Source: Candidatus Obscuribacter phosphatis
GTDB lineage: Bacteria; Cyanobacteriota; Vampirovibrionia; Obscuribacterales; Obscuribacteraceae
Assembly: GCA_001899315.1 (NCBI GenBank)
Contig: MOYA01000001.1
Coordinates: forward strand, 2,901,556 to 2,965,555
Direction of reading: 5' to 3'
DNA length: 64,000 nt
The translations under genes and the position numbers were made by a program. Of the stretch, positions 14,310 through 20,333 are shown piece after piece (the stretch's first letter is position 1; each line of letters opens with the position of its first letter). Under the pieces are notes generated by a model. That model ran no database searches. It was not told the origin of the DNA and saw only the letters and a program-made list of their open reading frames with translations.

Positions 14310-14519
14310 TTGAGTCTTCTTATCGCCAATATCGCAATAGTCTTGGTTGCCAGTTATCTTGCCCTGCGCTTTCTAAAGGAAAGCCCCGGAGAGAAAGCTT
14401 ATCTTTGCCAAGATTGTCGCTTTAATAGAGCCGATCTTTGTCTCAAGCCGGAGAGACCAGAGGCGCTAGAATGCACCAGCTATCGCAGCGGCCAACCTGA
14501 AGAGAGCCCAAAAGAATAG
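14310..14519 (+). CDS. small membrane-anchored protein with four cysteines
   Basis: 69 residues from TTG 14310, directly after the OppC stop codon. One hydrophobic helix (LLIANIAIVLVASYLALRFL) is followed by a soluble tail with YLCQDCRFNRADLC and ALECTSY. The CxxC plus two further cysteines could form a zinc or iron site or disulfides. No family recognised. Its position at the end of the transporter operon suggests a role connected with it, for example as an accessory subunit; that is inference only. Confidence 0.6.
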   Translation: MSLLIANIAIVLVASYLALRFLKESPGEKAYLCQDCRFNRADLCLKPERPEALECTSYRSGQPEESPKE

Positions 14520-14566: not shown

Positions 14567-15844
14567 TTAGGGAGTCGGCTTATTGCGGGTGGCGAGGCTG
14601 CCTGTATGAGCATCAAGGGCAGCTGTTAGTGGTTCGTTTGCAGCGATGATTGAGGCAATGGCGGAAGCCAACTTACCGCCGCCATCGGCATTGAGGTGCA
14701 CGGTATCACAAAAGTCGCCACGACCAAACTGGGGTGCTTCCACCAAACTAACATAGACAGCTTTGTTCTGGTTGCAGACCTCGGCCACTTTCTTGCCATA
14801 AGCAGCAAAAAACTTCTCGCCCAAGATGGCTCTATTTTCTGGTGTTAGAGGCATACCCAAGACAAGTACAGTGCTGCCTTCGCCTTTAAGGTAAGAAAGA
14901 AAGTCGGACAAATAGTCAAACTGCACATCATAGGTATCGGGATGGGTATTTTTATAGCGCCTTTTATAATCGCGGCTATTGTCTACGAACAACTTAGGCA
15001 GATTGGGTGTGAGCACGGCTTGCCCCGGCTTGATATTGCCCTCATAACCACCCATGACAAATTTGACCTGGTCGGCAACTAATTTGGCATTGGCAGAATC
15101 TGAGGCGGCAGTTAACTTAGTATCACTAGGTTGGGCAGCAATTTTAGACTCACCACCGGCAATACCACAAGCCAAGAAAGTTTCTACAAAAGATCTGGTG
15201 CCGTCTTTTAGAGGAGCCTCAAGCCGTCTAGTTGGAATTTCCTGCCCGGCAAAATACTCAAGTCTCGACCAGGGACGGTTGAAGGCTCTATTAACATAAG
15301 CGCTCATGTCGCTAAATTTGGAGAAATAGCGATATGGCTCGGTAGCCCCGGCACAGGGCAGTGAATTGTCGATAAAGTCGCGGGGAGAAATAGTCAACAC
15401 CACTAGCGGTGGCGCCCCTTTGGTCTTATACAAAGCTTTGGCGATGGCAAAGTGATCAGAGATCATGGCGCCGGGCAGAGCCGAAAGAAAGACATAGCGC
15501 TCAGGCTCACGGCGAGTCTTTGCCAGAGCTCTTTCGATAGTGGGGCAGTGATGGTTATCGACAAAGTCTATAGACCGACCGGTCAGATTAGCATCGGCTG
15601 CCTGCAAACCACCTATCTGCGAACTACCGAGCACGGCCACATCGGGGCGGGCACCGGTCAAATAAGCACGGGCCAACCACCAACTGGAGGGCTTGCCTTC
15701 CTGCTTGACCTTGTCGGTGAGTTCAAAGTTTTCATCAGTCAAAATGTTGGCGGTTTGTTTTTGCCCGGCAGGCAAAGCAGCGATGACACCGTTTAGCACG
15801 GCGAAACAAACTGATGCGGCTACAAATCGGGAGAGATTCAACAA
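14567..15844 (-). CDS. exported SGNH/GDSL-like hydrolase
   Basis: 425 residues with an N-terminal hydrophobic signal or anchor (FVAASVCFAVLNGVIAALPAG). VAVLGSSQIGGLQ near residue 70 fits block I of SGNH hydrolases (Ser nucleophile). The C-terminal RGDFCDTVHLNADGGGKLASAI supplies the Asp and His of block V (DxxH). Between them are FLSALPGAMISDHFAIAKALYKTKG and VLVLGMPLTPENR. This arrangement is found in DltD/AlgX-like envelope proteins that acylate or deacylate polysaccharides, but the substrate cannot be read. The start is a TTG (15844), with no strong ribosome site. A structured RNA that ends in a terminator lies immediately upstream on the same strand, which may be its leader. Confidence 0.65.
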   Translation of the reverse strand: MLNLSRFVAASVCFAVLNGVIAALPAGQKQTANILTDENFELTDKVKQEGKPSSWWLARAYLTGARPDVAVLGSSQIGGLQAADANLTGRSIDFVDNHHCPTIERALAKTRREPERYVFLSALPGAMISDHFAIAKALYKTKGAPPLVVLTISPRDFIDNSLPCAGATEPYRYFSKFSDMSAYVNRAFNRPWSRLEYFAGQEIPTRRLEAPLKDGTRSFVETFLACGIAGGESKIAAQPSDTKLTAASDSANAKLVADQVKFVMGGYEGNIKPGQAVLTPNLPKLFVDNSRDYKRRYKNTHPDTYDVQFDYLSDFLSYLKGEGSTVLVLGMPLTPENRAILGEKFFAAYGKKVAEVCNQNKAVYVSLVEAPQFGRGDFCDTVHLNADGGGKLASAIASIIAANEPLTAALDAHTGSLATRNKPTP

Positions 15845-15954: not shown

Positions 15955-16147
15955 CAAAAAACCAGGTCCCTGTGCCGGTTCACCCACCGGGCCCACAGGG
16001 ACCTGCTCCTAGTAGACTGATCACGAGATCAGAACTTTTCAATTATCGCTCCAACGGCGCTCCGTAGAATTGCTTAATCCGGGAACACGTCCAGTGACTG
16101 GAAATGCTTGCCCCGCTTGACTGTGAGCCCTCCGTCCTTGGTTCGAT
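15955..16147 (-). ncRNA. structured RNA of about 193 nt with own promoter and terminator
   Basis: Read leftward, a near-consensus promoter (TTGTCA, 16 bases, TATAAT) is followed by about 190 non-coding bases ending in a strong hairpin plus T6. Hairpins visible inside include TCCAG-TCA-CTGGA and CTGATC-TCGT-GATCAG. The 5' segment GGGCTCACAG (16130-16121) can pair over 10 bp (one G-U) with CTGTGGGCCC (15998-15989). The latter lies inside the 5' arm and loop of the terminator hairpin, so the two structures exclude each other. This fits either a leader that controls the SGNH gene by attenuation or a stand-alone RNA; the length is close to that of 6S RNA. I could not match it to a known family. 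Confidence 0.6.
15956..16005 (-). terminator. intrinsic terminator of the structured RNA
   Basis: CAGGTCCCTGTG and its exact reverse complement (15963-15974 and 15994-16005) form a 12-bp stem, with an inner CCGGT/ACCGG stem in the loop. On the minus strand it is followed by six T residues (complement of 15956-15961). There is no T-run in the other direction, so it acts leftward. Confidence 0.8.
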
Positions 16148-16153
16148 GTTTTT

Positions 16154-16181
16154 ATTATAGCAAGCTCATTGGGGTTGACAA
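16154..16181 (-). promoter_or_regulatory. strong sigma70-type promoter of the structured RNA
   Basis: On the minus strand TTGTCA (16181-16176) and a perfect TATAAT (16159-16154) are separated by 16 bases. Predicted start near 16147. It is among the best promoter matches in the window. Confidence 0.75.
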
Positions 16182-16235
16182 GAGGATCTGATAATCATTA
16201 TTTTCTTGTAAGGATCGTTTGTATATACAAGCCCT

Positions 16236-19200
16236 CTATTCAGCCGCCTCAGCCTTTTCGCCGGCTTCAGGCTCTTTGCTCAGTATAGAGAAGAATATCT
16301 TGACAATTCGAGGGTCCCACTCTTTGCCTGAGCCCTCTTGAATCAATTTAATCGCTTCTTCTTTAGAGAAAGCTTCGCGATAGGGTCTTTCACTGGTCAT
16401 GGCAGTATAGGCATCAACTAGTGAGACAATGCGCGACTCGATTGGAATAACATCGCCCTTCAAACCATTGGGATAGCCGCTGCCGTCCCAGTGCTCCTGA
16501 TACGCTTCCACCACCGGCGAAATCTTGGATAAGAGCCTGGCCGGCTCAAGAAACTTAGCACCGGCATGGGGCACTTGATTGATATAGACGCGGTCTTCTT
16601 CGTTGAGATTGTCGGCTTTCTTGAGAATGTCTTCTGGTACCACCATTTTGCCGATATTGCACATGACTGCGGCCAGTGACACCACTTCGGTGTGGTCCTT
16701 GGCTAAGTGCAGACTCTGAGCTATGCGCGAAGCATAAGAATAAGCGCGCTTGGAACGCTCCGGCGTATAAGCCGAATGCTCTTCCACCTGGCGCACCAAT
16801 TGGGCAAGCAATCCAAGTAAGCCCTTTTCTTTCACTACTTCGACATCTAAGCCGCTGGACAAATCTATCGAGCCGCCTTTGGCGCCGACTTTCTCGATTG
16901 TCTTGCCGGCACCATCTTTGTCGGCTGCTTCAGATGCGTCCAGCACAGCAGCTGGTCCCATACGAATATCTTGCTTCATCGCATGCTTGAACTTCTCTTC
17001 GCCGCCATCGGCCAATGTAGGCAATAAGTCTTCGGTGACGGTGCAAACTTGGTTGCGCCCGCGGTGCTTAGCCAAAAATAGAGCTTGGTCGGCCAACTCA
17101 AACAAGCGAGTCTTATCTTGAGCATCGTTGGGGAAAGTAGCGACACCGATAGAACCAGTGACGGTGCCGGCACCTTCTACAGGTTTCTCACGAATAGCGG
17201 CGCAGATGCGCTCTGCCACCATCTTGGCCCATTTCAGATCGGTCTCTGGCAAAAGAATGACAAACTCTTCACCGCCAAAACGACCGACGGTATCAATTTC
17301 ACGCACCGATCTTTTTATGACATTACCAATATGTATGATGGCGGCGTCACCGACATGGTGACCAAGATTGTCGTTTATTTTCTTGAGATAATCGAGGTCG
17401 ACGATAATGAATGAGAAGGGGTGACCAAATCGCTGGAAACGGTCAATTTCTTTTGATAGCTGTTCTTCGAAATAACGGCGGTTGAACAAGCCGGTCATCG
17501 GGTCGGTAACAGCTTGCCTTTCCACTGTGGCAAACAGTTCGGCGTGCGAGATAACGACCCCGACCCTGTCGGCGAGGTCAATAACCATTCTCATGTCTTT
17601 GTCGGGCAAGGGCTTGCCGCTGTCTTTAGAAATCAGCATGAGGGCGGCTTTGAAAGTACTGCCCTGACCAAGCGGCACGAGGATGGTGCGACGGGTATCG
17701 AAAGAGTCGGTCCATAGGTCGTCAGACAAAGTTTCTTTCAAACCTTGGGCGTCGATAATTACAGTCTGCCCTTCCAATAAAGCATCTAGATTTTTAGAGA
17801 CGATGGCATCGGCAATGCTTTGAGCGGCAGAAATCACCGGGTCTTCCTCAAGCATAGGCATGCCGGGCATAGCCGGAGGCAAGGGCGGCGGAAACTCATC
17901 TTCGTCCCCGGCAAACTTGCATTTCACCGCCTTGAGAGGGGCGCTTTGACCTTCTATATAGTCGTACAAAGAGACCACACAAAGGTCGAGATCAAAGTAC
18001 TCTTGCAAAGACTTAACCAGAGTATCCATAATCTGGTCGGCTTCTTTGAGCGAACGTTTGATCTCGAGTGATACTTTGTTGATTAGAGACTCACGCAATT
18101 GGTCGGCTCTAATTTGTTGCACCGCCATATCGGCGCGAATAACGTTGGACAAGTGACCGGCGATGGTCAAGCCCAGTTCTCGGTCTTGTGGTCTAAATTG
18201 GGGGCGTTTCGGCTGTCTTTGCCAAAGTCCGATCACACCCATGCGGTGACCTTCCGACACCAAGGGTAGTACCAAGGCCATATCATGACCAAAGAAAGGA
18301 TCCCCTTTGCGGGAATATTCCATATTTACGACTTTGCCGCGTCCTGACTCGAACACGGCAACAAATGGATTCTCTTTATTGGAAAGGTCCATAGACCCTT
18401 CTTCGCTCTCTCTTATCTGGGGCTCAAGCAAGTTAAGGTCTTGATTGAAGAGATAAATCTGAGAGTGAATAAAGCCCATGTGATCAGCAACAAGCATAAC
18501 CGACTTAACAAGCGAATCACGGCTGCTCTCGCCTTTAGAGTCGCGAAACAGCGAAGCTATCTCGTTGATGAGCTTCATTTCTTGCGCGTCCATTTCGATC
18601 TTGCTTTGGTCGAAAGACTGCTGCACAACAACCGAAAGCATTTCGGCGACTTTCTGCAAGACCACGGCGTCTTCGGTGCTCCACTCACGTGGACGTCCGC
18701 ACTGTTGCAACTCTAGAAAGCCCGAGAAAATACCACGAGAACGCAACTGCACCATAAGGCGTCCGCGCACATCACCCAGTTCTAAGAGTGAGGAAAGAGT
18801 GCGGGACATTTTGTGCAAATCGGTATCTTGGGCAGTATCTGGAATACTGATAACACCAGCCCCCGATTCATCAGGAAAGCGCGAGAGAAATTCGAGCACG
18901 ATGGACATCGACTCTTGCGAATTGAGCTGGTTATCGACAAAGCAAGTATTGCCGCCGATTGAATATTCGTTTGTCACCGCCAACTGATCCCCGACCACTT
19001 TCCACATAAGCCCTCGATCGGCACCGAGTATGGTGGTAAGTGTTTCGATGGCGTATTGCAAAATAGAATTAAGATCGCTCGAATGTCTGAGCTGACCGAT
19101 GATCTCACTGATAATAGACTGGGCGGAAGGGGGAATGAGATTTTTGCCATGGGTAACACCCATGGTTAGTTCAGAACCAGGGTCGATGGCCATCAAGCCC

Positions 19201-20333
19201 GATGAAGTACGAGAAGCTTGACCTTTGCGGGACTTAGCCGGAACCAGATTGGCTTCGGCACCGGCCAGCGGATCTGGTTCGAGAACATCGCCATAAATCG
19301 AACCTTCTGCATTTATGCCGGCTGAGTTCATACTGGCAAGCGAACTGTGACTGCGTCTAGCTGAACGCGCGCCGCTCAACTTATCGCCGCCGGCTTTCTC
19401 GGCAGCTCTATCAGGGGCGTTGATTTCAGAATTAGGCAAAGGAGGATGGGGACTGAAATCTGAAGCATCGGTGGGCGAACCGGGAGAAATAGCAGAGACC
19501 GGTTCGGCATAGTTACCGGCCAGCTTATTCATCTGCACAGTGGGCGAAGGTGCCGAAATAGCTGGATTGGGAACAGTTGGCACGCCGCTGTCGGCAACAC
19601 TATAGCGGCCGCCGCGATAGTCCATGGCGATAGGCTGGATTTTGTTTGGACCGGTAATGGTCTGAGCGGCTTGCGAACTTGGCGAAACGCCAGGGGGAGT
19701 GAGCTGAAATACTGTTTCGCCCGAATCTTCTTGATTGCCGGTGCCGTCAATTATCAGACTCTGCTGGATCGGACCTTTGAGCACAGGCCAAAGCCCCTTC
19801 ACTTGCTGCACAAAGCGAGGATCACAACCACCGGGTCCCAGTGAAATGCGGGCATCTTCGATACGATTGCTGTCGGCTAGAGCAAGTGATTGCCAAACCG
19901 GCAAAAGTCTATTGAAAGCCTCTCTGACAATACCCGGGTCGATTGAACCGGCGCACTGATATTTGTGATTTTCGGATGACTCGGTGGCTTGCTGACCATA
20001 GACCACCATGGAAAGCCGCGGGCTCTCGACAATGACGCTCCATTCATCAGGGCCTTCGGCGCGCTCATCAGAAAAACAAGCGACATAGGTCGATTCTCTC
20101 AGCAAAAGTCCAAAGTCTTTGCCCGAAGGCAGCAAATCGCCAGCCCCGTGGCGGCGCCAATAAACTATGACAGGGTTAATTTTTTCAGCCAGGATAAGCT
20201 GTTCGACCTGTCTGATAAAAGGCAGAAAACCATCGGGAGCCAAGATGCTCAAAGGCAGCGCGCCTGGACCGGCCTGCTGCACCAGCATCATCAGAAGTTG
20301 TAAAGGACCCGACCGTCCTGAATCTTCTAGCAA
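16236..20333 (-). CDS. GAF-GGDEF-HD-GYP-like signalling protein, HD site degenerate
   Basis: 1365 residues, TTG start with GAGG 12 bases upstream. After a 190-residue N-terminal domain that I do not recognise comes a Pro/Ser-rich linker (about 220-400). GAF-like domains follow, near 410-575 (SILQYAIETLTTILGADRGLMWK), 605-735 and 765-925. A diguanylate cyclase domain lies at about 925-1095, with DPMTGLFNRRYF and an intact active-site motif GRFGGEEF near 1021. The last 190 residues have an HD-GYP fold with GSGYP intact, but the metal motif HDIGK is replaced by CNIGK and the HHE segment by YQE, so phosphodiesterase activity is unlikely. It probably makes cyclic di-GMP in response to ligands bound by the GAF domains. 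No membrane segments. Confidence 0.85.
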   Translation of the reverse strand: MLEDSGRSGPLQLLMMLVQQAGPGALPLSILAPDGFLPFIRQVEQLILAEKINPVIVYWRRHGAGDLLPSGKDFGLLLRESTYVACFSDERAEGPDEWSVIVESPRLSMVVYGQQATESSENHKYQCAGSIDPGIVREAFNRLLPVWQSLALADSNRIEDARISLGPGGCDPRFVQQVKGLWPVLKGPIQQSLIIDGTGNQEDSGETVFQLTPPGVSPSSQAAQTITGPNKIQPIAMDYRGGRYSVADSGVPTVPNPAISAPSPTVQMNKLAGNYAEPVSAISPGSPTDASDFSPHPPLPNSEINAPDRAAEKAGGDKLSGARSARRSHSSLASMNSAGINAEGSIYGDVLEPDPLAGAEANLVPAKSRKGQASRTSSGLMAIDPGSELTMGVTHGKNLIPPSAQSIISEIIGQLRHSSDLNSILQYAIETLTTILGADRGLMWKVVGDQLAVTNEYSIGGNTCFVDNQLNSQESMSIVLEFLSRFPDESGAGVISIPDTAQDTDLHKMSRTLSSLLELGDVRGRLMVQLRSRGIFSGFLELQQCGRPREWSTEDAVVLQKVAEMLSVVVQQSFDQSKIEMDAQEMKLINEIASLFRDSKGESSRDSLVKSVMLVADHMGFIHSQIYLFNQDLNLLEPQIRESEEGSMDLSNKENPFVAVFESGRGKVVNMEYSRKGDPFFGHDMALVLPLVSEGHRMGVIGLWQRQPKRPQFRPQDRELGLTIAGHLSNVIRADMAVQQIRADQLRESLINKVSLEIKRSLKEADQIMDTLVKSLQEYFDLDLCVVSLYDYIEGQSAPLKAVKCKFAGDEDEFPPPLPPAMPGMPMLEEDPVISAAQSIADAIVSKNLDALLEGQTVIIDAQGLKETLSDDLWTDSFDTRRTILVPLGQGSTFKAALMLISKDSGKPLPDKDMRMVIDLADRVGVVISHAELFATVERQAVTDPMTGLFNRRYFEEQLSKEIDRFQRFGHPFSFIIVDLDYLKKINDNLGHHVGDAAIIHIGNVIKRSVREIDTVGRFGGEEFVILLPETDLKWAKMVAERICAAIREKPVEGAGTVTGSIGVATFPNDAQDKTRLFELADQALFLAKHRGRNQVCTVTEDLLPTLADGGEEKFKHAMKQDIRMGPAAVLDASEAADKDGAGKTIEKVGAKGGSIDLSSGLDVEVVKEKGLLGLLAQLVRQVEEHSAYTPERSKRAYSYASRIAQSLHLAKDHTEVVSLAAVMCNIGKMVVPEDILKKADNLNEEDRVYINQVPHAGAKFLEPARLLSKISPVVEAYQEHWDGSGYPNGLKGDVIPIESRIVSLVDAYTAMTSERPYREAFSKEEAIKLIQEGSGKEWDPRIVKIFFSILSKEPEAGEKAEAAE

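Follow-up and report, generated by a model that had tools for sequence, protein, structure and literature searches.

The window analyzed here, a 64,000-nucleotide stretch of a Candidatus Obscuribacter phosphatis contig, carries on its minus strand a structured RNA of about 190 nucleotides (nt), delimited by folding and homology from its predicted start at position 16147 to the end of a T tract (15956 to 16147). The host family, the Obscuribacteraceae, comprises non-photosynthetic relatives of the cyanobacteria. Upstream of the RNA and on the same strand lies a gene for a GAF-GGDEF-HD signaling protein (16236 to 20333), identified by Pfam (GGDEF, 3.2e-45; HD_5, 8.2e-34; GAF, 1e-15) and by synteny as the usual upstream neighbor. 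Downstream, a 425-amino-acid (aa) SGNH-like open reading frame (ORF; 14567 to 15844, minus strand) starts 110 bp from the RNA and has no Pfam match at an E value of ≤0.001. It is followed by a gene on the plus strand for a small cysteine-containing protein (14310 to 14519; 60 to 90 aa, with a CDDCRFN-type motif in relatives), also without a Pfam match; in many genomes this gene and the RNA converge.

A preliminary description of this stretch, based on the sequence alone, had reported a strong promoter, about 190 noncoding bases, and a 12-bp terminator hairpin followed by T6, and all of these were recovered. The promoter, TTGTCA-16-TATAAT on the minus strand (16154 to 16181; TTGTCA at 16181 to 16176, TATAAT at 16159 to 16154), matches 11 of 12 consensus positions and has an extended −10 (TGC before TATAAT), from which transcription is predicted to start at about 16147. 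Three promoter-like sites were found in the region, versus a mean of 0.6 in shuffles of it. Of 34 homologous loci, nearly all have a discernible −10 and many have a TTG-type −35. The 190 bases contain no conserved ORF, and those present in homologs vary in position, length, and sequence; a small-protein mRNA or leaderless peptide was thus rejected.

The minimum free energy (MFE) of the 193-nt RNA is −74.7 kcal/mol, whereas shuffles average −62.2 (z = −3.1; 1 of 200 shuffles was equally good). Its 5′ domain (16045 to 16147, minus strand), defined by the window MFE together with homology and covariation in relatives, consists of helices P1 (16147-16144/16048-16045), P1b (16141-16138/16054-16051), P2 (16128-16125/16062-16059), and P3 (16115-16112/16083-16080). 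P1 and P3 are in the window MFE, P1b is partly so, and P2 was assigned by homology; the P3 arm of the window is longer than usual. A linker hairpin, P4 (CTGATC-TCGT-GATCAG; 16017 to 16032), is predicted next, and linker hairpins of other sequence were judged by eye to occupy its place in most relatives. The 3′ element, P5 (15963 to 16009), comprises GGAGCA and a hairpin in which the 12-bp outer stem (16005 to 15994 with 15974 to 15963) is followed by a 3-nt bulge (15993 to 15991) and a 5-bp inner stem (15990 to 15986 with 15979 to 15975) closed by the loop GGGTGA. The T6 tract (15956 to 15961) forms the tail of an intrinsic terminator. P5 is absent from the list of a simple terminator scan, apparently because of its bulge.

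Alignment of the locus in relatives, which had been proposed as a check, revealed conservation within the family and covarying base pairs. In 25 aligned sequences, all 425 of 425 P5 pair cells are standard, while slid versions of the pairing reach at most 53%. Two-sided changes occur in 7 of the 12 outer pairs (shuffled mean, 4.2). A single base excepted, the inner stem CCGGT/ACCGG and the loop GNGTGA do not vary, and GGAGCA shows little or no variation; more divergent members have a few changes in these parts. Twelve cells hold G-U pairs, whereas A-C mismatches are absent; the selected molecule is therefore the minus-strand transcript. The T tract is poorly conserved: the 8 bases that follow the stem include 2 to 8 T, the longest uninterrupted run measuring 2 to 8. 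As the loop and the 5′ flank are better kept than the T tract, P5 is more than a terminator. In two loci (L018 and L019), P5 is followed directly on its 3′ side by another inverted repeat (GGTATCG-TATA-CGATACC type), and similar repeats are found in L031, L033, L066, and L067; these may be extra terminators or DNA sites.

The 5′ helices (P1, GAUCG/CGAUC, as well as P1b, P2, and P3) were derived by hand inspection of folds. RNAalifold on whole-length MAFFT alignments detected nothing beyond the 3′ hairpin because the P1 strands were misaligned, and a model from a trimmed subset resolved the 5′ domain. This model, R2, was built from 7 sequences and finds 28 of 39 loci, 21 of them outside the seed and all at the expected place. 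Over 53 genomes it matched 20, always adjoining the 3′ element and nowhere else. It gave no match in the window's own genome, a divergent copy that is missed because of its longer P3 arm. Of 472 cells in the 5′-domain pairs, 93.6% are standard; the alignment was fitted to its model, which inflates this count, but slid controls are still far lower (≤55%). Two-sided changes affect 14 of 19 pairs (6.2 when shuffled), and the covariation score is 0.34 versus ≤0.053 when slid. Changes in P1 and P2 are also visible in the raw sequences (ACCG/CGGU in L032 and AGAACUGC/GCAGUUUU in L018), and the P3 pairs hardly vary at all. A conserved single-stranded segment of the AAGUCUCAC type is altered in several genera, including that of the window. 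A pseudoknot between the loop GUGA and a conserved UCAC was considered and rejected, as the UCAC segment varies by eye while the loop is constant.

A DNA search retrieved homologs from 27 of 60 relatives, all of them members of the family to which the window belongs. R1, a covariance model that was built for the 56-nt 3′ element from the 25 sequences, detects a single copy in each of 39 of 50 family genomes, representing 21 of 24 family genera; the sole second match (genome G015) arises from the palindrome being matched on its opposite strand as well. Its conservation in 39 family genomes shows that the hairpin is not a chance feature. Outside the family, R1 had no match in any of 239 further genomes of the class. 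An R1 match is also lacking from some good-quality family genomes (e.g., G020, G025, and G064), so these data do not show the RNA to be essential. Across 84,980 species, the exact core GGAGCA-N13-CCGGTGNGTGAACCGG was present in 31 stretches, 30 of which were assigned to this group, with named records belonging to Candidatus Obscuribacterales or Melainabacteria; the remaining one, from Kitasatospora, is probably a chance occurrence. No match to the RNA was found in viral contigs. Three contigs of metagenome-assembled genomes labeled Chloroflexi, Actinobacteria, and Proteobacteria (L082, L093, and L097) carry the RNA, and their labels are probably wrong.

The GAF-GGDEF-HD gene is upstream at about 19 of 24 evaluable loci, and loci with another upstream gene (L011, L012, L013, L015, L016, and L032) also keep the RNA. 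In most relatives, the downstream region contains the convergent gene for the small cysteine-rich protein and peptide-transporter-like genes. A co-directional ORF resembling the SGNH-like gene of the window is found only in genera g1 (that of the window), g5, and g10; in the other genera, the gene that follows is in most cases convergent or unrelated. As the RNA persists under changed neighbors, it behaves as an independent gene and not as a leader. The preliminary description had left open whether the RNA regulates the SGNH-like gene or stands alone; the second option is supported, with a single-copy, family-wide, covarying RNA under its own promoter, and the first is not supported. In some genera only, the SGNH-like ORF lies between the RNA and the transporter genes. 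A repeated ATGCACCCGAGACGGGTGCG element was also observed beside the RNA in one genome (G031, flank of L016).

Comparison with Rfam, including the 6S and riboswitch models suggested earlier, gave no match to any known family. Searches of Rfam 15 with the window and six homologs, at gathering and permissive thresholds, returned only chance matches to eukaryotic and archaeal families, and neither transfer-messenger RNA nor RNase P RNA was matched at the locus. The bacterial signal recognition particle RNA (RF00169) was rejected likewise, as it was found elsewhere in the genome (56.3 bits) and not at the locus. 6S RNA (RF00013) was rejected because it gave no match at the locus even at an E value of ≤10 and a candidate is present on another contig (G000:C4:192762-192962; 28 bits, under the Rfam cutoff of 46.4). 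Comparable subthreshold 6S matches occur in most family genomes, suggesting that the Rfam 6S model underdetects this group. CsrB/RsmZ-type small RNAs (sRNAs), which sequester CsrA, resemble the window copy in standing alone and in their repeated GGA motifs. However, this reading was dropped, as CsrA (PF02599) had no match in the 95% complete genome, in which controls were detected. A search for Hfq yielded one subthreshold match (16.7 bits; cutoff, 27). With CsrA not found and Hfq below threshold, no known partner is proposed. A literature search found no small or regulatory RNA described for this group.

The nearest kind is that of the lineage-restricted, non-cis structured RNA motifs such as Flavo-1, Gut-1, Clostridiales-1, and Cyano-1 (Weinberg et al. 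2010, PMC2864571). Like these, the RNA of the window has a covarying structure, is confined to one lineage, and lacks a cis-regulated gene. In contrast to them, it has no Rfam match, belongs to another taxon with another structure, is single copy, and has a highly conserved 3′ hairpin. As read from the sequences, a covarying structure, an own promoter, and the lack of a dependent gene place it among stand-alone structured RNAs, and a lineage-specific RNA of this type, about 190 nt long, is very probably what the locus encodes. Kept as a single copy in 21 of 24 genera and absent from Rfam, it constitutes a new RNA family for which an annotation model is ready.

The best overall explanation, to which we give about even odds, is that this stand-alone, lineage-specific RNA acts in trans by binding protein. 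As the comparison of relatives shows, the RNA has a conserved promoter of its own, in many cases preceded by an upstream box, and it folds into stacked P1-P2-P3 with an invariant P3 core, then the variable P4, and then P5 preceded by GGAGCA. We infer that it would act as an RNA-protein particle or as a protein-binding regulator, with the conserved P3 core, the GGAGCA-P5 element, or both being recognized by a protein or the ribosome; in copies that have a U tract, P5 would also end transcription. The paired core (P3 and the inner P5 stem) is invariant along with the loops, while the U tract varies, which points to a recognized structure and not to a simple terminator or the seed of an antisense RNA. 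A protein-binding mode, taken by itself, might equally well prove right or wrong. The more specific proposal that the ribosome or a protein devoted to this task recognizes P3 and GGAGCA-P5 in an Obscuribacteraceae-specific RNA-protein particle, with a function unlike that of any known bacterial RNA, is tentative and has somewhat poorer prospects. As the 3′ hairpin is conserved beyond a role in termination, its partner becomes a defined and testable question.

The strongest alternative is a trans-acting antisense sRNA, in which AAGUCUCACAAC after P3, GGAG before P5, and the P5 loop would pair with mRNAs and P5 would serve as the terminator. The own promoter, the size, and the 3′ hairpin are typical of such sRNAs, conserved unpaired segments exist, and a candidate regulator box lies upstream. 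However, the loops are no more invariant than the paired positions of P3 and the inner P5 stem, the AAGUCUCAC segment is not maintained even in the genus of the window, Hfq was not confidently identified, and the U tail is not conserved. We therefore regard antisense action as rather unlikely, if still deserving of consideration beside protein binding.

Like the RNA of the window, riboswitch and attenuator leaders combine a structured 5′ domain with a subsequent hairpin and T tract, but they have a conserved downstream gene and a conserved switching pairing, neither of which was found here. A ligand-sensing 5′ domain that governs the formation of its own stand-alone transcript would fit the layout of the RNA, in which a linker joins a compact 5′ domain with variable outer helices and an invariant core to a terminator-like hairpin. 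However, no conserved alternative structure was found between the two domains, no gene family is linked to the RNA, and Rfam gave no match, which makes this reading improbable.

Slightly less credible still, and very doubtful, is a cis-acting leader with a terminator/anti-terminator switch for the SGNH-like gene, as envisaged in the preliminary description. The 10-bp pairing on which it was based does exist in the window: GGGCTCACAG (16130 to 16121, minus strand), its 5′ half, pairs with CTGTGGGCCC (15998 to 15989) over 10 bp including one U-G, and this duplex and the terminator are mutually exclusive. It is the MFE structure of the nascent RNA until the 3′ arm of the terminator has been made, and the window has a co-directional ORF 110 bp downstream. 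However, once the 3′ arm is made, the terminator fold is better by 9.2 kcal/mol. Among 27 homologs, the duplex is better than in shuffles only in L001 and L002 (p of ~0.05), which are the species pair of the window, and is marginal in L007 (0.07). Its 5′ strand is that of P2, which covaries with its local partner and not with the terminator arm. As a similar co-directional gene is restricted to three genera, control of the SGNH-like gene is not supported either. Thus, a switch that was plausible when read from one sequence fails after the alignment of relatives.

In most genomes the element lies on the 3′ side of the GGDEF gene, as would also be expected of a mere terminator or DNA inverted repeat without a functional RNA. 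This is highly improbable, as a sequence-specific loop and the 5′ GGAGCA are kept and the U tract is not, G-U pairs occur without A-C mismatches, the RNA has a separate covarying 5′ domain and its own promoter, and the element persists beside different upstream genes. A second, RNA polymerase-binding 6S-type RNA has the least chance of all: 6S RNA is similar in length (~200 nt), copy number (one), own promoter, and the internal loop between P2 and P3, but its architecture differs, P3 has 4 core pairs plus 3 only, the 3′ end is a hairpin and not a closing stem, and the 6S candidates lie elsewhere in this and other genomes.

Expression of the stand-alone RNA is probably conditional, via a box upstream of its promoter. 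In the window, this candidate regulator site is the 17-nt CCTTACAAGAAAATAAT (16197 to 16213, minus strand), 5′ of the −35 and identical in genera g1 and g5, between which its position relative to the −10 differs by about one helical turn. No second site was found genome-wide at ≤2 mismatches that would define a regulon for CCTTACAAGAAAATAAT. A Gibbs motif search upstream of the homologs gave a modest signal (8.6 versus ~7.1 bits), and a simpler CTTA(C/A)A-type box is clearer. A large subset of relatives has this box near −54, counted from the −10, and others have it near −43 or −65; these positions are spaced by about one helical turn. At 3 loci a perfect repeat with a 10-bp period occurs (expected, 0.08). 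From the sequences, this arrangement suggests a candidate site for an OmpR/PhoB-type regulator. The phylum of the cyanobacteria that carry the sRNA PsrR1 is related to that of the window's group. PsrR1-type regulated sRNAs (PMC6202907) likewise have their own promoter and a possible response-regulator-type upstream box, a likeness in promoter and box features, for which no sequence relation was seen.
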